Shown here in pieces: positions 3,992 through 33,224 of a stretch of DNA of 35,614 nucleotides; within the stretch, counting starts at the first letter, position 1, and each line of letters begins with the position of its first letter. A model generated the notes under the pieces. The model made no database searches and was not told the origin of the DNA. It worked only from the letters and a program-made list of their open reading frames with translations. The position numbers and the translations under genes are program-made. The DNA is from Methylococcaceae bacterium TMED69. Lineage in GTDB: Bacteria; Pseudomonadota; Gammaproteobacteria; Ga0077536. Location of the stretch: assembly GCA_002170535.1 (NCBI GenBank), contig NHDW01000001.1, forward strand, positions 123,899-159,512, read 5' to 3'.

Positions 3992-4086
3992 TCAATAGAT
4001 TATATTTCTTATCTAAAGGCAGCCTTAATCTCTGCTCCTGCCTAGGCCTAAATCTTTGTCCAATCTAAATTTCTGAAAATTTTCTT

Positions 4087-4116
4087 TGTAACAGTTTTGT
4101 AACACTTACTTGTTAC
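4087..4116 (+). promoter_or_regulatory. Pho-box-like direct repeat upstream of the porin gene
   Basis: TGTAACA occurs at 4087-4093 and again at 4098-4104, so the 7-bp units recur with an 11-base period as in PhoB boxes (7-bp half site plus 4-bp spacer). A weaker third unit ending in TTGTTAC lies at 4110-4116. The element sits about 90 bases before the porin start. It differs from the E. coli consensus (TGTCATA-type half sites), so PhoB binding is an inference. Confidence 0.45.
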
Positions 4117-4195
4117 TTTGCCTTGGTGCTACACAGCACATAACTGCCAGACATGGTAAAATGGGGTCTTACTCAAGCATAAAAGGAGTGCAAAA

Positions 4196-5419
4196 GTGAA
4201 AGCAAAATTGAAATTATTTGTTGTAGCTGCTGTGATGATGTTCACTGCAACTACGACTTATGGTGCAAACGAGTCTATGATGGACTTATTAAAAATCTTA
4301 AGGGATAAAGGAACGCTTACTTCGAGCGAGTACGAGCTTCTTGTCAATGCTTCCAAAGCTGACAAAGAGCGAGTTGAAATAATCAAGAACGAAACAATTG
4401 GTACAGTGTCCAAGCAGCTCAAGAAAGCTAAGAAAGCAGAAGGCTGGGCGACCAAAGTCAAAGTCAAAGGTGATATAAGGTTACGTTACCAATATCAAGA
4501 CACTGACGGTGGTAACGCACGTTCGCGTGGACGTTATAGAGCACGAATCGGTATCATTGGCAAACCTGTAGACAATTTCGAAGCAGGAGTCGGGATAGCT
4601 TCAGGCGGTACTGACCCACGTTCTACAAATGAAACCTTTGATGACACTTTCGAGACCAAGGGAGCTCAGATGGACTACGGTTACCTTCAATATAAGAACG
4701 GTGGTCTACAAGCGATAGGTGGTAAGTTCAAACGTAAGAAGTATCTTTATCAATCCACCGATTTAATGTGGGATGGAGATGTGAATCCAGAAGGATTTGC
4801 CACGAAGTACACAGCGAAGAATGCTTACGGGAAAGCTTATGCTGCTGCCGGAATTTTAGTACTCGATGAACAAGGTGGATCTTCAGATGATCCTTTTATG
4901 TACTATGGGCAGATTGGTCAAAAATTTAAGTCTGGTAATATCTATGGTCAGATAGCTGGAATGTACTACGCGTTATCCGATTATAACACTGGAACCTCTG
5001 ATAACGGAGGTGAACATTCTGCTGGCACTAACACTGATGATAACTTTGGTGGATTCGTGATTAGTTCAGAGCTCGGGACAAAAATGGGTGGCGCTAAAGT
5101 AAGTGTGATTTCAGACTATATAAACAATCTATCAACAAATACTAATGAAGACTCAGCCTATGCTGTGGGATTCAAATGGAAATATGGTAAATGGAAGGCT
5201 AAATATATTTACGCTGATCTGGAACATAATGCGGTGCCTGACTTTTTACCTGACTCCGATAGATTTAATGGTGATACAGGAATCAAGGGCCATGAGTTTG
5301 CGATAGGATACAAGCTTAACAAGCGAGTATCACTTGGACTAGACTTTTATGCCACGGAAGACGACGTTACTAACGTTAACCAAGAAATACTTCAGCTTGA
5401 CTTGAAGATGAAGTTCTAA
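4196..5419 (+). CDS. Putative outer-membrane porin
   Basis: 407 residues from a GTG start with a strong AAGGAG site 8-13 bases upstream. A signal peptide (VVAAVMMFTATTTYGA) is followed by a short helical N-terminal segment (SMMDLLKILRDKGTLTSSEY, then a Lys-rich coil to about residue 88). The rest is an alternating-polarity beta-barrel rich in Gly, Tyr and aromatic pairs: KVKGDIRLRYQYQ, RSRGRYRARIGI and ending in LQLDLKMKF. The terminal Phe is the usual BAM-recognition residue. The architecture matches the putative porin families of marine gammaproteobacteria. Substrate is unknown; the Pho-box-like repeat in front suggests an anion such as phosphate, but that is inference. A partly deleted copy follows at 5624. 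Confidence 0.85.
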   Translation: MKAKLKLFVVAAVMMFTATTTYGANESMMDLLKILRDKGTLTSSEYELLVNASKADKERVEIIKNETIGTVSKQLKKAKKAEGWATKVKVKGDIRLRYQYQDTDGGNARSRGRYRARIGIIGKPVDNFEAGVGIASGGTDPRSTNETFDDTFETKGAQMDYGYLQYKNGGLQAIGGKFKRKKYLYQSTDLMWDGDVNPEGFATKYTAKNAYGKAYAAAGILVLDEQGGSSDDPFMYYGQIGQKFKSGNIYGQIAGMYYALSDYNTGTSDNGGEHSAGTNTDDNFGGFVISSELGTKMGGAKVSVISDYINNLSTNTNEDSAYAVGFKWKYGKWKAKYIYADLEHNAVPDFLPDSDRFNGDTGIKGHEFAIGYKLNKRVSLGLDFYATEDDVTNVNQEILQLDLKMKF

Positions 5420-24200: not shown

Positions 24201-25172
24201 TTAAATATTTAATTTATCGATTTTATTATCTTGGCTCGCTAATTCATAAAGCAAACCTTCTCTCAGTGCATTCCGATTGATTTTCATTTTTTCTATTTTT
24301 AACTCATTGAACAGGGTGTATAAAATTGTTAATCCTCCGGCCAATATTTTTTTTCTTTTGTCAGATATAATTTTAAGATTTAGGTTATTGCAATGCCTTG
24401 CCTTAATCAGTAAGTGTATAAGTTTCTCAAGACTATCTTTAGTTATATATTGTTTGCCCCAGCCGTTCGCCGTTACTATTCTCTCTATAGCTAAAATGGT
24501 GCCTGAGCAACCGATGGCTTCATCCCAGCCCAATCTTTTAAAATTATGGGTAATAGGGCGAATCTCTTGCTCTGCTTTTAAGAATGCTTTACTAAAGTCA
24601 TTGGCGTTTGTCTCTCCATTAGGGAAAAATAATTTTGATTGATTTATGCATCCTAAGTGGAGACTGTCCAGCTGTATTGGATTCGTATCATCTCCGACTA
24701 TAATTTCTGTACTTCCCCCACCTATGTCGATAACTAATCTTCTTTTTTTGCAATCTTTTAGTGCAGTTGTAACTCCGAGAAATATTAATCTTGCTTCTTC
24801 CGACCCAGAGATAACATTTACTTTATGGTTTAGACTAGATTGCAAATTTTCTAAGAAATTACAGGCTTTTCTTGTAAGCCTGAACGTGCTAGTTCCTACT
24901 ATTTTTATTAAGTCTGGTTTTGATGCGTTAATTCTTTTTGCAATTTTTGACGCGCATGAAAGAGCTTTTTGCTGGGCTTTTGCACTTAATTCGTTTTCTT
25001 TGTTTAATCCAGCAGCTAATCCAATAGTTTCTTTGTATTTATCGATTATTTTAAATGTATTTTTTTCTTTTCTGGCTATAATTAAGTGAAAACTATTAGA
25101 CCCTAAGTCAAGAGCTGCGAGCGTCTTGTTCTCTGATTTAAGGGATTCTATAGAGTTTTGATTCTTTTTCAT
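24201..25172 (-). CDS. ppx: Exopolyphosphatase (Ppx/GppA family)
   Basis: 323 residues. The ASKHA fold motifs are clear: LAALDLGSNSFHLIIA (phosphate-1), VGTSTFRLTRKACNFLE, ISGSEEARLIFLGV, LVIDIGGGSTEIIVG (phosphate-2) and ECSGT-like AIGCSGTILAIERI, ending with NRNALREGLLYEL. It releases phosphate from polyphosphate, or pppGpp in the related GppA. It is short: E. coli Ppx is about 513 residues, so only the two N-terminal actin-like domains are present and the C-terminal HD-type domains are missing, as in many other bacteria. It lies 276 bases downstream of ppk1 on the same strand. Confidence 0.88.
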   Translation of the reverse strand: MKKNQNSIESLKSENKTLAALDLGSNSFHLIIARKEKNTFKIIDKYKETIGLAAGLNKENELSAKAQQKALSCASKIAKRINASKPDLIKIVGTSTFRLTRKACNFLENLQSSLNHKVNVISGSEEARLIFLGVTTALKDCKKRRLVIDIGGGSTEIIVGDDTNPIQLDSLHLGCINQSKLFFPNGETNANDFSKAFLKAEQEIRPITHNFKRLGWDEAIGCSGTILAIERIVTANGWGKQYITKDSLEKLIHLLIKARHCNNLNLKIISDKRKKILAGGLTILYTLFNELKIEKMKINRNALREGLLYELASQDNKIDKLNI

Positions 25173-25448: not shown

Positions 25449-27572
25449 TCATTTAGGACCTTTCTTAAGGCTACCGGCACCCGATAGGCTGGGATTGGCA
25501 ATGAAATAATCGTGAGCGGAGAAACTATTGGGATCTTTCTTGGGACGGCTATAGCTTCCGTCAGAATTTAGATGCCAACTGTTCTTTTCATCATGCAAAA
25601 GAGCCATTAAAACCTGATTGATTACCTGTTTGCGTACTGTTGGGTTTTCGAGCTGAACAAACACTTCTACCCGACGCAACAGATTGCGAGGCATAAGGTC
25701 TGCTGATGAGATGAAAACCAGATTCTTTGGTGACCCAAGCTTCCCACCATTCGCAAAGGCATAAATACGGCCGTGTTCAAGATGGCGACCAATGACTGAA
25801 CGAACGTTTATGTTGTCTGACAAACCTGTGACACCAGGGCGAAGACAACAGATGCCCCGTGCTATGATCTCTATCATCACGCCGGCACAAGAAGCTTCGT
25901 AAAGTTTGTTGATAAGGTTACGGTCAACAAGTGCATTGCTTTTTAGCCATATCCCAGATGGCTTGCCTTTTTGGGCTGCCGCAATCTCTGCGTCAATTAG
26001 GCCATTGAGCCGCGACTTAGATTGGTGCGGTGATATAAAAATTTTCTTGAGTTTTTTAGGATGCACATGACTTGTGAGATATTTAAACACTTCATATACA
26101 TCACGGCCTACTTCCTTATCACAAGTGAAAAATGATAAATCAGTATAAATTTTTGCTGTGATTGGATGATAATTTCCCGTTCCCAAATGTGTATACGTCA
26201 CAAGCTTACCTGACTCCCGTCGAACAACGGCTGACATTTTAGCGTGAATTTTTAAATCGGTAAGTCCATAGGTCACATGTACTCCGGCCCGCTCTAGATT
26301 GCGGGCAAGCTGTATATTGTTCTTTTCATCGAATCGTGCTTTTAGTTCAATAATAGCAGTGACAGATTTACCACTTTCAGCAGCTTCAATCAGTGCTCGG
26401 ACAATCGGTGAATTTGGCGTTGTGCGGTAGAGTGTCTGGCGGATGGCTAGCACATTTGGATCCTGCGCTGCCTGCTGCAGAAATCGAATCACAACTTCAA
26501 AACTCTCATAAGGGTGATGAACGAGGATATCCTTGTTGCGAATCGCAGCGAAATAGTCGCCATCAAAGTCCCGAATCCGTTGGGGGAAACGGGGATTGAA
26601 CGTGGGGTATAGCAGATGTTTTGGCATGAAGCTAATCAACTCTGCAAAATTATCGATTGACACTGGCCCTTCTGTGCCAAAACATCTGTCTTTATCGATT
26701 GCCATCGCCTGACAGAGAACTGATAGAGTGGAAGAAGACGCATCAGAAGTCAGGGTTAATAGAACCACACTACCGCGTTTGCGTGCTCGAAGAGCTGTTT
26801 CAAACTCATTGATGAGGTCAATTGCCTCGTCATCAATCTCAATTTCTGAATCTCGAATAATACTGAAGACCGACGCCGATTTTAGAATATGTTTGGTATA
26901 AATTTTGTCAATAAAGGCTTTTATCACTGCTTCTACAAGAATGAAGCGCAGCTTGTTACCCGGTAGCTTTATAAAACGGCTCAGATTTTCCGGTAGTAGA
27001 ATTACACCATGGACTAGCTTCTTATTTGTGTCGATGAGCTCAAACAATAAACCTTTGCCCTGATTATGAAAAAAAGGAAATGGGTGTGATGGATCTAATG
27101 TTGTCGGCGTGAGCAGTGGAAGAATATTAGTAATAAAATACTTCTCTATCCATTTCGCATTTTCGTCATCATTAGGAATTTCATCAAGAATGAAAATATC
27201 TTCTGTTCTAAATTCAACGATTAGAGCTTTAAGCAGTTTGTTTTGTTTGGTCAAAAGAGCAGCGCTTCGTTGATGAAGATGAGAAATTATTGTATCAATT
27301 TCGGTGTCATCAACCGGCACTCTACGCACACCTCGTTGCTGCAACTGGCGCAGACCTGCTATCCGAACCATAAAGAACTCGTGCAGATTGTCTGCTGAAA
27401 TCGATATAAAACGCAGGCGCTCTGCAAGGGGCAACGAATCATCCTCAGCGAGCGCAAGCACGCGTTCATTGAAAGCAAGCCAGCTTAGTTCGCGATTGAA
27501 ATAGCGCACGCCTTCGTTCGCGGTTGATAGAATGGGATCAGTCACTTCCGAAAATACTTTTTTATTTGTCAT
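25449..27572 (-). CDS. ppk1: Polyphosphate kinase 1
   Basis: 707 residues, full length. All family regions are present: the N-terminal YFNRELSWLAFNERVLALA, the catalytic histidine region LTDLKIHAK (His443) followed by YTHLGTGNYHP, and the second essential histidine in GRHLEHGRIYAFANGG (His600). It polymerises the gamma-phosphate of ATP into polyphosphate. It begins 9 bases after the stop of agt, so it belongs to the plcP-agt-ppk1 transcript and would be induced with the lipid-remodelling genes. Its base composition is richer in G+C than its neighbours (45-50% in sampled 60-base lines, against 28-35% nearby), which may mean later acquisition or strong conservation. Confidence 0.94.
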   Translation of the reverse strand: MTNKKVFSEVTDPILSTANEGVRYFNRELSWLAFNERVLALAEDDSLPLAERLRFISISADNLHEFFMVRIAGLRQLQQRGVRRVPVDDTEIDTIISHLHQRSAALLTKQNKLLKALIVEFRTEDIFILDEIPNDDENAKWIEKYFITNILPLLTPTTLDPSHPFPFFHNQGKGLLFELIDTNKKLVHGVILLPENLSRFIKLPGNKLRFILVEAVIKAFIDKIYTKHILKSASVFSIIRDSEIEIDDEAIDLINEFETALRARKRGSVVLLTLTSDASSSTLSVLCQAMAIDKDRCFGTEGPVSIDNFAELISFMPKHLLYPTFNPRFPQRIRDFDGDYFAAIRNKDILVHHPYESFEVVIRFLQQAAQDPNVLAIRQTLYRTTPNSPIVRALIEAAESGKSVTAIIELKARFDEKNNIQLARNLERAGVHVTYGLTDLKIHAKMSAVVRRESGKLVTYTHLGTGNYHPITAKIYTDLSFFTCDKEVGRDVYEVFKYLTSHVHPKKLKKIFISPHQSKSRLNGLIDAEIAAAQKGKPSGIWLKSNALVDRNLINKLYEASCAGVMIEIIARGICCLRPGVTGLSDNINVRSVIGRHLEHGRIYAFANGGKLGSPKNLVFISSADLMPRNLLRRVEVFVQLENPTVRKQVINQVLMALLHDEKNSWHLNSDGSYSRPKKDPNSFSAHDYFIANPSLSGAGSLKKGPK

Positions 27573-27581
27573 TATTAATAA

Positions 27582-28634
27582 TTAAGATGGAAACGTCAAT
27601 TCACGTTTGTATTGGTACCGGGGGTGATTGAGCTTAAGATTTGATTCAAAAGTCTGAGTGCATCTATCCCAAGAAAAATTGGTTGCATAGTTAATGCAAC
27701 TATCTTTACTTATCTTTAATGCTCCAGAAATAGCATCATAAAGATTATCGTTAAGAACGCCGCAGTAGTTTTGTTTGACAATGTCTTGCGGCCCTTCAAC
27801 AGGATAGGCGGCGATTGGTAATCCACACGCCATCGCCTCTAACATTACTATTCCAAAAGTATCTGTCTTACTTGGAAAAACAAAAACATCACCGCCAGAA
27901 AGGTAACTAGCCAACTCTTTTCCACGTTTTACGCCCAAAAAATGTGTCTCAGTATAAATAGAGCTTAAGTGCTTCAAGTCTGGACCATCGCCTATTACGA
28001 CTTTCGAACCTTCCAATTTAAGGTCTAGGAAAGAGGATATATTCTTTTCAAGTGCTACTCTTCCCATGTAAATATGAATTGGTCTGGGTAGCTGGTATGG
28101 AAAGGGATTATCATTATTGAATATTTCGGTATCGACCCCCCTCGACCATATCGCTACGTTTTTAAATCCCCTCCGTTCTAGTTCAGATTTTCTAGATTTA
28201 GAGGGCACCATCACGCATTGTGATTTGCCGTGAAATAATTTTAGCCAACTATAGGTCCAATTTATTGGAACTGGTATTCGCATTCTAAGATATTCTGGAA
28301 ATTGGGTGTGGAACGAGGTGGTAAATAAAATTTTATTAGTAATACAGTACCTTCTGCCGGCTAGCCCAAGAGGTCCTTCTGTGGCAATATGTATTGCATT
28401 TGGATTGTATAATCCTAAATCCCTAGTCAATTTTTTCCGGCAGAAAACCGCTAACCTAATCTCTGGATATGTTGGACACGGTATAGAGTAATAGCTTTCT
28501 GGTGTGAAGAATTTAACATCATAATCTTTTTTTTTGAGAAAAAAGCCGGTTTTTTTTAAAGTAGTCACGACCCCATTAATTTGTGGTTCCCACGCATCTG
28601 ATATAATTGCAATTCTTTTAGGCGCAGATTTCAT
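27582..28634 (-). CDS. agt: GT4-family glycosyltransferase, probable Agt-type lipid glycosyltransferase
   Basis: 350 residues. The N-terminus IAIISDAWEPQINGVVTTL and the C-terminal SKTDTFGIVMLEAMACGLP are typical of GT4 enzymes (GT-B fold, EX7E-like motif), with the MGRVALEKN donor-side loop. Its ATG overlaps the plcP stop by four bases. In marine bacteria, Agt enzymes beside plcP transfer glucose or glucuronic acid onto diacylglycerol to make glycolipids that replace phospholipids when phosphate is scarce. That specific role is inferred from the neighbourhood; the sequence alone shows only a GT4 enzyme. UDP-sugar donor choice cannot be read. Confidence 0.8.
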   Translation of the reverse strand: MKSAPKRIAIISDAWEPQINGVVTTLKKTGFFLKKKDYDVKFFTPESYYSIPCPTYPEIRLAVFCRKKLTRDLGLYNPNAIHIATEGPLGLAGRRYCITNKILFTTSFHTQFPEYLRMRIPVPINWTYSWLKLFHGKSQCVMVPSKSRKSELERRGFKNVAIWSRGVDTEIFNNDNPFPYQLPRPIHIYMGRVALEKNISSFLDLKLEGSKVVIGDGPDLKHLSSIYTETHFLGVKRGKELASYLSGGDVFVFPSKTDTFGIVMLEAMACGLPIAAYPVEGPQDIVKQNYCGVLNDNLYDAISGALKISKDSCINYATNFSWDRCTQTFESNLKLNHPRYQYKRELTFPS

Positions 28635-29422
28635 GCAAATAAAATCTCTTCGTGTATTGAAGTCTTAATTTCTGATAGCTTTATAATTTTTAATTGGCCG
28701 TTTTTTTGTTCGACCACGGCCGAACATTGTTCTACCCAATCACCACAATTTAAATAAACAAACCCTTCTTCATAAATTCGGTTAGCTGAGTGAATATGCC
28801 CACATATGACTCCATCGAACCCTTCTCTTTTTGCCCCTACTATTACCGCTTTTTCATAATCACTAATATATTTCTTAACTGACGAGAGCTTGTTCTTTAG
28901 TGCGTTACATGGAGACCAATACGGTAATTTGACTATGGCCCTAAAAAAATTTGTGACTCTATCTAAACAAAGAAGCAACTTGTATCCTAAAGAACCAATT
29001 TTTTTTAGAAGTTTCTTTGCGTGGACTGGCTCAAATTCGTCCCCGTGGCAGACTAAAATTCTTTTCTGACTTTTAGTGTGATATTCGAAACGGTTATGAA
29101 CGTTAAACCATAATTTTAATGTTTGAATCGACCCGTTGAGTATTGAATCATGATTTCCAAGAATATAATAGACATTAATTCCTGCTTTACTTAAGCTTGC
29201 GATTTTTCCTATGACTTGTGTGTGTTTTGTATTCCACTGACCTTTTTTGGATTGTCCCATATATTCAAAGTCAATGATATCTCCAACCAAAAATAGATTT
29301 TCGCAGTTCATATTATCGAGAAAAAAAAGAAGCTCATCCACTTTAGAATCCGCAGTGCCTAAATGGACATCAGAGATCCAGACCGTTCTAAAATTAAATC
29401 TTTTTGCTCGGTTGGGGTTCAT
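28631..29422 (-). CDS. plcP: PlcP-type metallophosphoesterase (phospholipase C-like)
   Basis: 263 residues. The five metallophosphoesterase motifs are present: ISDVHLG (Asp18, His20), VGDIID (Asp48), GNHD, CHGDE and GHIHSAN. Such sequences are often annotated as LpxH-like UDP-diacylglucosamine hydrolases, but true LpxH proteins are usually smaller and not next to these genes. Here it overlaps a GT4 gene and is divergent from btaAB, the exact arrangement of the PlcP phospholipase C that strips phosphate head groups from phospholipids in phosphate-starved marine bacteria. The resulting diacylglycerol would feed Agt and BtaAB. The call combines motif and context evidence. Confidence 0.85.
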   Translation of the reverse strand: MNPNRAKRFNFRTVWISDVHLGTADSKVDELLFFLDNMNCENLFLVGDIIDFEYMGQSKKGQWNTKHTQVIGKIASLSKAGINVYYILGNHDSILNGSIQTLKLWFNVHNRFEYHTKSQKRILVCHGDEFEPVHAKKLLKKIGSLGYKLLLCLDRVTNFFRAIVKLPYWSPCNALKNKLSSVKKYISDYEKAVIVGAKREGFDGVICGHIHSANRIYEEGFVYLNCGDWVEQCSAVVEQKNGQLKIIKLSEIKTSIHEEILFA

Positions 29423-29485
29423 TAGCTATTCATTTTCCACAAAATTTGATAGAAATTTAAGTTCATAAACACACGATAGTAACGA

Positions 29486-29503
29486 TGATATAAAAATGTT
29501 ACA
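29486..29503 (-). promoter_or_regulatory. Pho-box-like element between plcP and btaA
   Basis: Read towards plcP, TGTAACA (29503 to 29497) is followed by TTTT and then TATATCA (29492 to 29486), a 7-4-7 layout like a PhoB box but with a degenerate second unit. The same TGTAACA unit is found in front of the porin and the acr3 gene. The 189-base divergent region also has AT-rich promoter-like sequence, but I could not pick single -10/-35 pairs with confidence. Confidence 0.35.
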
Positions 29504-29611
29504 AATCGGTTAAAAAAAATAATTTTTTGTAAGAATGCTACTAAATTGAAAAATTTAACTAAATTGTAATAAAAATTAATTATTCTTCTTAAAATCGCCG
29601 AGGCAACGAAG

Positions 29612-30826
29612 ATGATAAAAACTTTTAGCGAATATGTTTTTGATATGATCACAAAAAATTATCTGATTTATAACAGTTGCTGGGAGGATCCCGCAATTGA
29701 TAGGGCAGCTCTTGATATTCGTAGGCATGATACGCTTTTGACCATAGCAAGCGCTGGATGCAATACTCTCGATTATCTGTTAGATGAACCAAAAAAAATA
29801 TATGCAGTTGATCAAAACAAACAGCAGATAGCGTTGTTAGACTTGAAAATTACTGCGATCAAAAATATAGAATTTGAAGATTTTTTTAAAATATTTGGGT
29901 TAGGTCGCCACGATAATTTCTATTCCATCTATCACACTTCCCTTAGACCTCATTTGCGCCCTTACTCTGCGAAATACTGGGATAAGCATTTGGATGTTTT
30001 TACGAGCGCTAAAATCCAAAATAAAACGGGATTATATTTCCATGGACTTAGTGGTAAGTTTGCGAGGTTATTCCATTTATATCTGAAATTTCGGCCTAGA
30101 TTAAAAGCTGCTATTGAACGACTTATGGCTGCAAAAAGCTTAGGTGATCAAAAGAAAGTTTATTCTGAATATGTATCTCCTCTTCTCTGGAAGCGGCACT
30201 TATTCTGGTTGCTCTCTAATCAGATGATATTGAATCTACTAGGAGTTCCAAAATCTCAATCAGCAGAGATGACTAACGAGTCTCCTGATGATGTCGCAAG
30301 ATTTATAAAAGATTCCATTGATTTTGTTTTTCAGAATATTTATTTAAAAGAAAATTATTTTTGGTTTTTATATCTAGTAGGTAGCTACTCAAAAGATTGT
30401 TGCCCGGAATATCTTAAGAAACATAATTTTACAAACTTAAAATTAAATTTGATTGATAGAGTTACCATTTATGATGGTTCATTAACTGATTTTCTAGAGA
30501 AATTTGACGGTAAAATTTCTAAGTTCATTCTATTAGACCATATGGATTGGATGAGTTATAAGGCAAAATCAAAACTAGAATATCAGTGGCAGCTTATTTT
30601 GAAAAGAAGCACTAATAATAGCAGGCTAATCTTTAGGAGTGCAGATAAATGGCCGGAATATTTAGATGAAATTCTTATTGATGAAAACGGTAATCGTTTA
30701 ATGGAGGTTCTTAAATTCGAACCTGACTTATCTCATGAGCTTTCAAGGTTTGATCGTGTCCACACTTATGCTGGATTTCACATAGCAGAGATTACGGGAG
30801 ATATTGAATGTTTGCGAATGACTTAA
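29612..30826 (+). CDS. btaA: BtaA: S-adenosylmethionine:diacylglycerol 3-amino-3-carboxypropyl transferase
   Basis: 404 residues. The N-terminal region carries the BtaA (DUF3419) hallmarks: NSCWEDPAIDRAAL, LTIASAGCNTLDYLL (SAM-binding loop) and IYAVDQNKQQIALLDLK. BtaA transfers the aminocarboxypropyl group of SAM to diacylglycerol, the first step to the betaine lipid DGTS, which contains no phosphorus. It is the first gene of a btaA-btaB-HAD operon and diverges from plcP by 189 bases. Its last 19 bases overlap btaB. A Pho-type promoter is expected; only a weak Pho-box-like element is seen. Confidence 0.92.
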   Translation: MIKTFSEYVFDMITKNYLIYNSCWEDPAIDRAALDIRRHDTLLTIASAGCNTLDYLLDEPKKIYAVDQNKQQIALLDLKITAIKNIEFEDFFKIFGLGRHDNFYSIYHTSLRPHLRPYSAKYWDKHLDVFTSAKIQNKTGLYFHGLSGKFARLFHLYLKFRPRLKAAIERLMAAKSLGDQKKVYSEYVSPLLWKRHLFWLLSNQMILNLLGVPKSQSAEMTNESPDDVARFIKDSIDFVFQNIYLKENYFWFLYLVGSYSKDCCPEYLKKHNFTNLKLNLIDRVTIYDGSLTDFLEKFDGKISKFILLDHMDWMSYKAKSKLEYQWQLILKRSTNNSRLIFRSADKWPEYLDEILIDENGNRLMEVLKFEPDLSHELSRFDRVHTYAGFHIAEITGDIECLRMT

Positions 30827-31515
30827 AATCTGTAGCAAGTCTTGTAAAAGGAATGTCAAAAGTAGGCATTCATAAAAATAAACTTGATGATTTTTATCGG
30901 GCTCAGGCCTCATCTTACAATGATTTTAGGAGCAAACTCTTGGCAGGCCGTTTTGATATGCTAAAAAAACTCTGCATAAGAGAGGGGCATTCCATAGCCG
31001 ATTTTGGTTGTGGAACCGGGCAAGTTTTAGATTATTTGAATCCAACCTTCATCCACTCCCTTGAAAGAGTAGATCTTGTTGATATCTGTTCTCCTCTGTT
31101 AGATAAGGCGAAAGAGAAGGAAAAAAATTTTATGAACGTTAACGTGGTATCGTGTTCCGCTGAGGAATATCGACCTGATACACTTTTTGATCGAATTTAT
31201 TTTTCTTATTCAATGACAATGATGCCGACATGGTTTGAGTCTCTACGGAATGCTTATAGATTATTGAAACCATCTGGATTTATTGGGGTGGTCGATTTTT
31301 GTTCTCAGCCTCTATTAACTCCAGTCGACCTGCCTACTAAGATGTCATTTTTTTGGACAAAATGGTTTCAGCATAGTGGAGTGCATCTTAACAGAAGATA
31401 TCAATCGACTCTTATTGGAATGTTCGAAACGGTTTATCACGAATACTTCACTCAACCCTTGCCCTATCTGAGCTTTCTTAAAGCTCCATACTATATTTTT
31501 ATTGGAAGGAAATAG
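30808..31515 (+). CDS. btaB: BtaB: N-methyltransferase of betaine lipid synthesis
   Basis: 235 residues from ATG 30808, with GGAG 9-12 bases upstream inside btaA. The class I methyltransferase core is visible: ADFGCGTGQVLDYL (SAM loop), ERVDLVDICSPLLDKAKEK, VVSCSAEEY and YRLLKPSGFIGVVDFC. BtaB methylates the amino group three times to give diacylglyceryl-N,N,N-trimethylhomoserine. The overlap with btaA fits tight co-expression. It is slightly longer at the N-terminus than a minimal methyltransferase, as is usual for BtaB. Confidence 0.9.
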   Translation: MFANDLKSVASLVKGMSKVGIHKNKLDDFYRAQASSYNDFRSKLLAGRFDMLKKLCIREGHSIADFGCGTGQVLDYLNPTFIHSLERVDLVDICSPLLDKAKEKEKNFMNVNVVSCSAEEYRPDTLFDRIYFSYSMTMMPTWFESLRNAYRLLKPSGFIGVVDFCSQPLLTPVDLPTKMSFFWTKWFQHSGVHLNRRYQSTLIGMFETVYHEYFTQPLPYLSFLKAPYYIFIGRK

Positions 31516-31524
31516 TAATTTAAA

Positions 31525-32190
31525 ATGAAAGATGTATTGATTGCACTAGATTTTGACGGTTTACTCATCAACTCCTATAAATTATTGGAAAAAACTTTTT
31601 TAGAATATAATCTTGACCTTGGAGAAGAAGAGCGTTTTAAGAATAGACGCAAATTCCTCAAGTATCTTGGTGGAGGCAAGGAGTGGATTCCTAATTTAGT
31701 AAAGTTCACACTTCCAAAAAAGAGACATTTAATAGAGAATTTAACGGAAAAATATAGGGAGGAGGGAGTTGTTTATAAGGAATTTATTCCTTTTTTAAAC
31801 AGTTGTATCCAAAATCAGTCTACTCATGTTGGTGTTATAAGTCGAAACTTCACGATGGAACCAGGGATAACTATTCGAAAAGTTCTTCGTAACAGCGAAA
31901 TAGATGAAAAGAATCTAGACTTTGTTATCCCTCTTCCAATTGGCGCAAGTAAAACAGATGTTTTAAAAGCAATGAACACAACGCGATATAAGATAAAAAT
32001 TTATACTGGTGATGAAATTAGTGACTATAAAGCTGGAAAGGCTTCAGATTACAGTATGTATATTGCATCGTATGGGTTTGATAACAAAGAACGCTTACAA
32101 CATAAGGGTGGAGTTGATGATTTACAAATTTTTGAGACCCCACATCATTTGGTTAATGCTTTAGTTGCCGCTCAGAATAATCAATGTTAA
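31525..32190 (+). CDS. HAD-superfamily hydrolase in the btaAB operon
   Basis: 221 residues, nine bases after btaB. HAD motif I is LDFDGLLIN (Asp9 nucleophile, Asp11), motif II the Ser in GVISRN, motif III the Lys in GASKTDVLKA and motif IV TGDEISDYKAG. All catalytic positions are present, so a phosphatase or related phosphotransfer role is likely. The cap is helical (RRKFLKYLGGGKEWIPNLV). Its place behind btaAB suggests phosphate recovery from a small phosphate ester, for example glycerophosphate or a lipid-derived compound, but that is inference. Its stop overlaps the convergent acr3 stop by four bases. Confidence 0.82.
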   Translation: MKDVLIALDFDGLLINSYKLLEKTFLEYNLDLGEEERFKNRRKFLKYLGGGKEWIPNLVKFTLPKKRHLIENLTEKYREEGVVYKEFIPFLNSCIQNQSTHVGVISRNFTMEPGITIRKVLRNSEIDEKNLDFVIPLPIGASKTDVLKAMNTTRYKIKIYTGDEISDYKAGKASDYSMYIASYGFDNKERLQHKGGVDDLQIFETPHHLVNALVAAQNNQC

Positions 32191-33224
32191 GGTTTTTGAA
32201 GAATTTTATTCTCGTAGAATGATCTAGAGTAATTGAGTAAATAGACTATTAGTAGCATAATTGGTACTTCTACAAGCACTCCAACTACAGTAGCAAGAGC
32301 AGCCTTTGACTGTAGTCCAAATAAAGAAATTGCCGTTGCCACTGCTAGTTCGAAAAAATTACTTGCTGCTATTAAGCATGACGGAGCTGAAAGAGAGAAA
32401 TCTATTTTCATCTTAATACTTGTCAAATATCCAATCAGAGCAATGGTTAGGATTTGCAAAACGATAGGTATAGACAATGCGCCAATTAAAAATGGCATGG
32501 TGCGGATTTTGTCAGCCTGAGTACCAAATAGTAGAATTATGATTAATAAAAGCGAAATTTGCGGTAAAATATTACAAATCTTATAGATACTCTTACTGCG
32601 AGTTCCCAACCAATAACTAAAGTCTATAGTTTTTATGCATTGACCGATTGTGAAAGGAATCACAACAAATACAACAACAGTTAGTATGAGTGTCTCAATT
32701 GGAATAGAAACGTTTGAGATTGATAGGAGTAAACTCACAATAGGGACGAAAGCAATTATTAGAATGATATCGTTAACTGCCACTTGAGTTAGCGTAAATT
32801 CTTTATTACCCTTGCATAGTGAACTCCATACAAAAACCATCGCTGTGCAGGGGGCTGCCGCGAGTAATATCAAACCTGCGTGATACTCTCTCCATTCACT
32901 TTCACTGAATAAGTTAGGAATGAAAAGTCTTAGTATTAAAAACGAGAAAAAAAACATTAAAGCAGGTTTGACCAACCAGTTTAAGATTAGGGTTACGACT
33001 AATGGATTTATAAATTTTTTATATTCTGTTTTTCGATTGAAATCAACGTTAGCCATCATTGGAATGATCATCACCCATATTAGGGCGGCAACGACTAGGT
33101 TCACCTCGTAGATTTTAATTTCTGCTATAGTCTCAAAAAAAGCATAGAACAAATTTCCGAACAGTAATCCTGCTAAAATTGCCAGGCTAACCCAGAGAAA
33201 TAAATATCTTTCAAAAACATTCAT
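32187..33224 (-). CDS. acr3: ACR3-family arsenite efflux permease
   Basis: 345 residues with about ten hydrophobic helices. Family marks include the N-terminal WVSLAILAGLLFG, IWVMIIPMMANVDF, the helix-4 cysteine Cys126 in LAAAPCTAMVFVWS, and the glutamate in GVLVEVPIMLLIVYLL. ACR3 exports As(OH)3 using the proton motive force. There is no arsR or arsC beside it. The gene converges with the btaAB-HAD operon, and a TGTAACA element lies 22 bases before its start. Co-control with phosphate scavenging would make sense, since high-affinity phosphate uptake also admits arsenate. Confidence 0.9.
   Translation of the reverse strand: MNVFERYLFLWVSLAILAGLLFGNLFYAFFETIAEIKIYEVNLVVAALIWVMIIPMMANVDFNRKTEYKKFINPLVVTLILNWLVKPALMFFFSFLILRLFIPNLFSESEWREYHAGLILLAAAPCTAMVFVWSSLCKGNKEFTLTQVAVNDIILIIAFVPIVSLLLSISNVSIPIETLILTVVVFVVIPFTIGQCIKTIDFSYWLGTRSKSIYKICNILPQISLLLIIILLFGTQADKIRTMPFLIGALSIPIVLQILTIALIGYLTSIKMKIDFSLSAPSCLIAASNFFELAVATAISLFGLQSKAALATVVGVLVEVPIMLLIVYLLNYSRSFYENKILQKP

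Follow-up and report, generated by a model that had tools for sequence, protein, structure and literature searches.

The stretch of DNA analyzed here (the window) comprises 35,614 nt of contig NHDW01000001.1 from Methylococcaceae bacterium TMED69, the assembly of which spans 1.97 Mb in 10 contigs and is about 90% complete. It contains a locus in which predicted lipid-remodelling genes are found together with ppk1, encoding polyphosphate kinase 1. The coordinates of all open reading frames (ORFs) of this locus were confirmed and are as follows.

28631-29422, minus strand: plcP, encoding a lipid-remodelling phospholipase C of the metallophosphoesterase type
27582-28634, minus strand: agt, glycosyltransferase of family GT4 for glycolipid synthesis (Pfam PF00534/PF13439)
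25449-27572, minus strand: ppk1, polyphosphate kinase 1, SAR116-derived (TIGR03705, 835 bits for a cut-off of 466)
24201-25172, minus strand: ppx, native-type exopolyphosphatase of 323 amino acids (aa) (PF02541, Ppx-GppA, 219 bits)
29612-30826, plus strand: btaA (PF11899, DUF3419, 362 bits)
30808-31515, plus strand: btaB, S-adenosylmethionine (SAM) methyltransferase by profile match
31525-32190, plus strand: divergent HAD hydrolase (18.9 bits, under the Pfam cut-off; the predicted fold is HAD)
29423-29611: plcP/btaA divergent promoter region, 189 bp between the two operons

The genes plcP, agt and ppk1 are co-directional, with plcP and agt overlapping by 4 bp and ppk1 following agt after a gap of 9 bp. 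This confirms the geometry described in an earlier note on this DNA, which had placed ppk1 nine bases after agt in a single block. On the opposite strand, btaA overlaps btaB by 19 bp, and the HAD gene follows btaB after 9 bp. The combination of a DUF3419 protein and a SAM methyltransferase in one operon is that expected for betaine-lipid synthesis by BtaA-BtaB, and btaA is 42-46% identical to homologs from the host's family that are sited in bta clusters. Similarly, agt is 58% identical to the plcP-adjacent agt of the same family. The presence of PlcP, Agt and BtaAB genes side by side, also put forward in the earlier note, was thus borne out by profile matches and linkage. The ppk1 product harbors the four PPK1 domains and both catalytic histidine regions, and it could be aligned to the Escherichia coli PPK (1xdo) via the LKIHAK and LEHxR motifs that carry these histidines.

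Homologs of PlcP are often labelled UDP-2,3-diacylglucosamine diphosphatase in databases, which is a common mislabel. This annotation would favor the alternative that the 28631 gene encodes an LpxH-type lipid A enzyme and hence that no lipid remodelling is encoded at the locus, an outcome the earlier note had named as a refutation. However, the LpxH equivalog model, with its cut-off of 190.35, gave the protein only 38.3 bits, and the true LpxH of the same genome lies elsewhere (G000:C7:6753-7433, 233 bits). Its likeness to the PlcP clade is full-length and exceeds that to LpxH, with 36-46% identity over more than 240 residues (E values down to 1e-62) to genes neighboring agt or btaAB in numerous gammaproteobacteria and SAR116-set genomes. 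We therefore regard the LpxH alternative as scarcely credible and conclude from these comparisons that the gene is plcP, with predicted hydrolysis of phospholipids to diacylglycerol (DAG). In the plcP tree, the branch of the window gene was too long to be placed. Another ORF, G000:C5:222231, was considered as LpxH and discarded as YfcE-like.

Judged by its marker genes, the host is a gammaproteobacterium. Its RpoD was nearest to gammaproteobacterial sigma factors (the best chain scored 684 bits, the E. coli protein about 655 and 7ye1 468; we take the structures 7xya and 7ye1 to be those of Pseudomonas and Caulobacter, respectively), and the 16S rRNA of a congener is 85.5% identical to that of E. 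coli. These markers rule out that the whole genome belongs to SAR116, as the match of ppk had suggested. The PPK1 of the window is 81-83% identical to those of three named SAR116 (alphaproteobacterial) genomes, 42% identical to that of a genome of the same genus (G001) and 38-44% identical to the full-length gammaproteobacterial sequences listed among 58 relatives and in 369 sampled genomes. Partial gammaproteobacterial matches, confined to the conserved core, go up to 52%. Identity to named alphaproteobacterial sequences carried on plasmids is 48-51%, and that to Azospirillum 51%. In a tree of 58 sequences, the window ppk fell within the SAR116 set as sister to the three named genomes, with a support of 100 in the Shimodaira-Hasegawa-like approximate likelihood ratio test (SH-aLRT). 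The agt gene, by contrast, clustered with sequences from the family of the host (SH-aLRT 99). At the DNA level, a similarity of 77% spans exactly bases 1-2124 of the SAR116 ORF, with none outside it. Furthermore, the G+C content (GC) of ppk, both overall and at third codon positions (GC3), exceeds the average of 67 host ORFs by about 2.3 standard deviations, both values (43% overall) being intermediate between host and donor.

On this evidence ppk1 is a SAR116 xenolog acquired by single-gene transfer between classes, and not an ancestral member of the cluster, a point that the earlier note had missed. With a SAR116-like ppk and an agt of the host's family, the plcP-agt-ppk operon is chimeric. 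Transfer of the entire plcP-agt-ppk block from SAR116 was rejected, because agt is more similar to homologs of the host's family, and because neither plcP nor agt adjoins ppk in the closest donor loci. A search for a close viral or plasmid vector of ppk returned none, the best phage match being 39%.

In the congener G001 and other members of the family, ppx and ppk are convergent neighbors, and in G001 only 5 bases separate the ends of ppk and of a ppx of 500 aa. The window ppx is 43% identical to residues 1-306 of this congener's protein and lacks the C-terminal domain III (PF21447) present there, in contrast to a full-length gammaproteobacterial Ppx. No trace of the missing C terminus was detected when a remnant was searched for. 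Likewise, the native ppk was not found in the approximately 90%-complete genome, in which the SAR116-type gene is the sole ppk, and this gene flanks ppx on the side opposite to the position of the native convergent one. The simplest reading is that the native ppk and the ppx tail were lost and that the SAR116 gene is a replacement, an order of events that we infer. The earlier note had placed ppx just behind ppk; it is the next gene and on the same strand as plcP-agt-ppk, but it lies 276 bp beyond ppk, is C-terminally shortened (323 versus 500 aa) and is probably a separate transcription unit. The shortened ppx may be functional without domain III or may be decaying.

Repeats resembling Pho boxes were found at three places in the window.

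29498-29515, minus strand: Pho-box-like site TTTTAAC-CGAT-TTGTAAC upstream of plcP, with 1 of 14 positions mismatched to TTGTAAC-N4-TTGTAAC
29553-29570, plus strand: weak Pho-box-like site with 3 mismatches, 41 bp before btaA, which may be due to chance
4086-4103, plus strand: TTGTAACAGTTTTGTAAC, a Pho-box-like repeat free of mismatches that precedes a putative porin gene (4196-5419)

Upstream of plcP, a third 7-bp repeat, 11 bp on, stretches the array to 29487 (29515-29487). The same 7-4-7 repeat, with 2 mismatches each, precedes the pst operon, before pstC (C3:114180), as well as pstS (C3:198043; PstS confirmed by TIGR02136), and the repeats before plcP, the porin gene, the pst operon and pstS are all on the gene strand. 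The pstS site was found after the motif had been fixed, the chance of such a hit in 200 bp being about 0.003. Additionally, phoBR is present beside pst. A position weight matrix trained on E. coli Pho boxes gave the plcP promoter no high rank, and the local TTGTAAC repeat was used instead. Direct repeats of 7 bp spaced by 11 bp at a promoter and shared with pst thus point to membership of the Pho regulon, though only with moderate strength. The putative porin (PF16930; region 4086-5419 of the window) has the sole perfect TTGTAAC-N4-TTGTAAC of the genome and is a candidate Pho-regulated porin. The pst operon itself (G000:C3, L248) is devoid of pstS. That gene is found on the same contig at a distance of about 84 kb and has a Pho-box-like site of its own (L264).

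The earlier note had considered a separate ppk promoter as an argument against its proposal. This objection is weakened, since the 9-bp gap is too small for a promoter and our scan revealed no separate ppk promoter or terminator above chance. Given the 9-bp spacing and the shared direction, ppk would by default be expressed from the plcP promoter, and because the repeat array before plcP matches the pstS and pst sites, ppk is probably Pho controlled. From the sequence, Pho control of ppk through read-through thus appears likely.

Linkage of ppk in plcP neighborhoods of other bacteria, which the earlier note had proposed to look for, recurs beyond chance. The two genes lie within 20 kb of each other in 9 of the 68 other gammaproteobacteria in which both were placed (0.94 expected; P = 4e-7), a result calculated, like those below, against uniform placement, with distance thresholds set after seeing the data and no full phylogenetic correction. 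Counted by genus, the excess corresponds to 7 genera (P = 3e-5). Within 5 kb, the pair was found in 4 gammaproteobacteria (0.23 expected; P = 1e-4), and 3 of the 18 genomes of the SAR116 set have it within 20 kb (0.34 expected; P = 0.004). Many of these cases adjoin pst/phoR, so that a general Pho neighborhood accounts for part of the excess. Co-directional arrangements exist in a gammaproteobacterium (plcP-agt-agt2-ppk, L219) and in a SAR116-set genome (plcP-agt::dgkA-ppk-ppx, L223). In the latter, an Agt-like protein of 464 aa (L223 3875-5269), with a tail that by eye resembles a DgkA-type diacylglycerol kinase, is encoded between plcP and ppk.

The earlier note had proposed that phosphate released from lipids is banked directly as polyphosphate. 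This is chemically incomplete: PlcP yields DAG and a phosphorylated head group, not inorganic phosphate (Pi), and PPK1 polymerizes the gamma-phosphate of ATP, so that Pi release and ATP synthesis must come between. The HAD protein could be relevant here. It is 51-54% conserved across five loci of the family and is kept with agt/bta genes, its predicted fold resembles phosphoglycolate phosphatase and beta-phosphoglucomutase, and the DxD, lysine and acidic motifs are present in the alignment. Matches in the PDB were at the level of fold, with no sequence match. We hypothesize that it is a candidate phosphatase that would free Pi from the phospho-headgroup.

Overall, we consider it likely that this is a Pho-regulon lipid-remodelling locus that captured a SAR116 ppk1, that the native ppk and the ppx tail were lost, and that the genes are probably co-expressed under PhoB. 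In this mechanism, PlcP would strip phospholipids to DAG, Agt would make glycolipids and BtaAB a betaine lipid. A single ppk1 of SAR116 lineage was captured directly behind agt, whereas the native ppk, which usually converges on ppx, would have been lost along with the 3' part of ppx. Binding of PhoB to the repeats that precede plcP would then probably switch on plcP-agt-ppk as a single transcript, and the capacity for polyphosphate synthesis would climb together with phospholipid removal. The purpose might be to rebuild or buffer polyphosphate under phosphorus stress, where a phosphatase and ATP would be needed to bring head-group Pi to PPK. The arrangement thus suggests a joint activation of phosphate saving and phosphate storage. 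Several observations weigh against this reading. The Pho-like motif was chosen post hoc, when two of its sites had already been seen, and it is not enriched genome-wide (27 matches versus 38 for the reversed control), which is why the Pho-box evidence is only moderate. No obvious Shine-Dalgarno sequence was found upstream of ppk, and there is a weak terminator-like hairpin inside agt (27700-27682, minus strand), although such matches are not above chance. The native ppk could lie in the unseen 10% of the genome, and the exact donor of the window ppk was not identified among the sequences found.

A SAR116 gene could also have landed by chance near ppx and replaced a lost ppk, with no regulatory meaning. 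The gene does adjoin the remaining ppx, which corresponds to the old ppk-ppx neighborhood, and a family member (G016) has lipid genes and ppk-ppx within about 20 kb, so the site may simply be a Pho neighborhood. We find this hitch-hiking unlikely, however, since the 9-bp spacing and co-direction would place ppk under the plcP-agt promoter by default and plcP-ppk proximity exceeds chance, with co-directional genes in two other lineages. Far less probable still is an assembly or binning artefact joining a SAR116 piece into the contig: the genome is a draft and ppk is odd by composition, but the foreign similarity is bounded exactly by the start and stop codons and flanked by host-like genes, ppk shows just 77% DNA identity to any SAR116 sequence found, its GC falls between those of host and donor, and the genome has no second ppk.

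Two further readings would go beyond the captured, Pho-controlled ppk1. Somewhat doubtful, if a little less so than hitch-hiking, is a dedicated banking route in which PlcP would release phosphoethanolamine or phosphoglycerol, the HAD protein would free Pi, ATP synthase would make ATP and PPK1 would store the phosphate. The conservation of the HAD gene with the lipid genes, its fold and motifs, and the shared operon of ppk and plcP-agt are consistent with it, and plant HAD phosphatases, PECP1 and PS2, are described in PMC6549246 as performing this step during lipid remodelling. On the other hand, the HAD gene of relatives accompanies bta/agt mostly with no ppk nearby. Polymerizing scarce Pi in starvation is also counter-intuitive, although plankton of the low-phosphorus Sargasso Sea is reported to be enriched in polyphosphate (discussed in PMC6925121). 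Only tentatively, but with better prospects than this route, can it be proposed that transfer of the lone ppk1 wired polyphosphate into the remodelling operon, that plcP-agt-ppk was built independently in at least three lineages as a selected, co-regulated saving and storage module, and that the HAD protein frees head-group phosphate.

Lipid remodelling by PlcP/Agt-type enzymes is established in other bacteria (PMC4796936, PMC8528852), and clusters of plcP with agt or with btaA-btaB under putative Pho boxes are already known from marine heterotrophic bacteria as PlcP genomic context types 1 and 2 (Sebastian et al., PMC4796936). The same glycolipid and betaine-lipid chemistry is predicted here, but the window has both modules facing each other and ppk1 after agt, and polyphosphate is not mentioned in that study. 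The PA3219-PA3218 (plcP-agt1) operon of Pseudomonas aeruginosa is likewise a gammaproteobacterial plcP-agt pair with a Pho box; unlike the window, no ppk is reported in it and polyphosphate is unmentioned (PMC8528852). In HIMB59, a flexible phosphate island harbors ppk, ppx, "LpxH", the glycosyltransferase RfaG, a diacylglycerol kinase (DGK), phoBR and pstSCAB (PMC10734472). This "LpxH" is probably PlcP and RfaG probably Agt, and if so, the island is a precedent, although it is alphaproteobacterial, betaine-lipid genes are not named and ppk is not reported as foreign. The SAR116 loci (L036, L227) share with the window ppk1 itself and represent the donor lineage, but there ppk precedes a ppx of 503 aa and phoR-pst, with no adjacent plcP in the nearest donors. 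Since Pho-regulon membership and Pho induction of ppk are general (PMC4415409) and the HIMB59 island is similar, the combination is less unusual than the earlier note claimed; ppk nevertheless is the new part of the lipid operon. Within the literature searched, the novelty lies in a foreign SAR116 ppk behind plcP-agt in a gammaproteobacterium and in the finding that plcP and ppk recur close together more often than expected statistically.

Plankton of the low-phosphorus ocean reportedly contains elevated amounts of polyphosphate, although storage should demand ample phosphate. If our reading is true, an operon joining ppk to phospholipid removal would be a concrete genetic reason for this enrichment and would offer a prediction testable at the strain level. 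The capture of a SAR116 gene exactly behind plcP-agt would also be a clean case of regulation-changing gene replacement in marine bacteria.

Beside the cluster, an ACR3 arsenite efflux gene (32187-33224) lies on the opposite strand and overlaps the end of the HAD gene by 4 bp. Arsenate entering via phosphate uptake may be the reason for its location.

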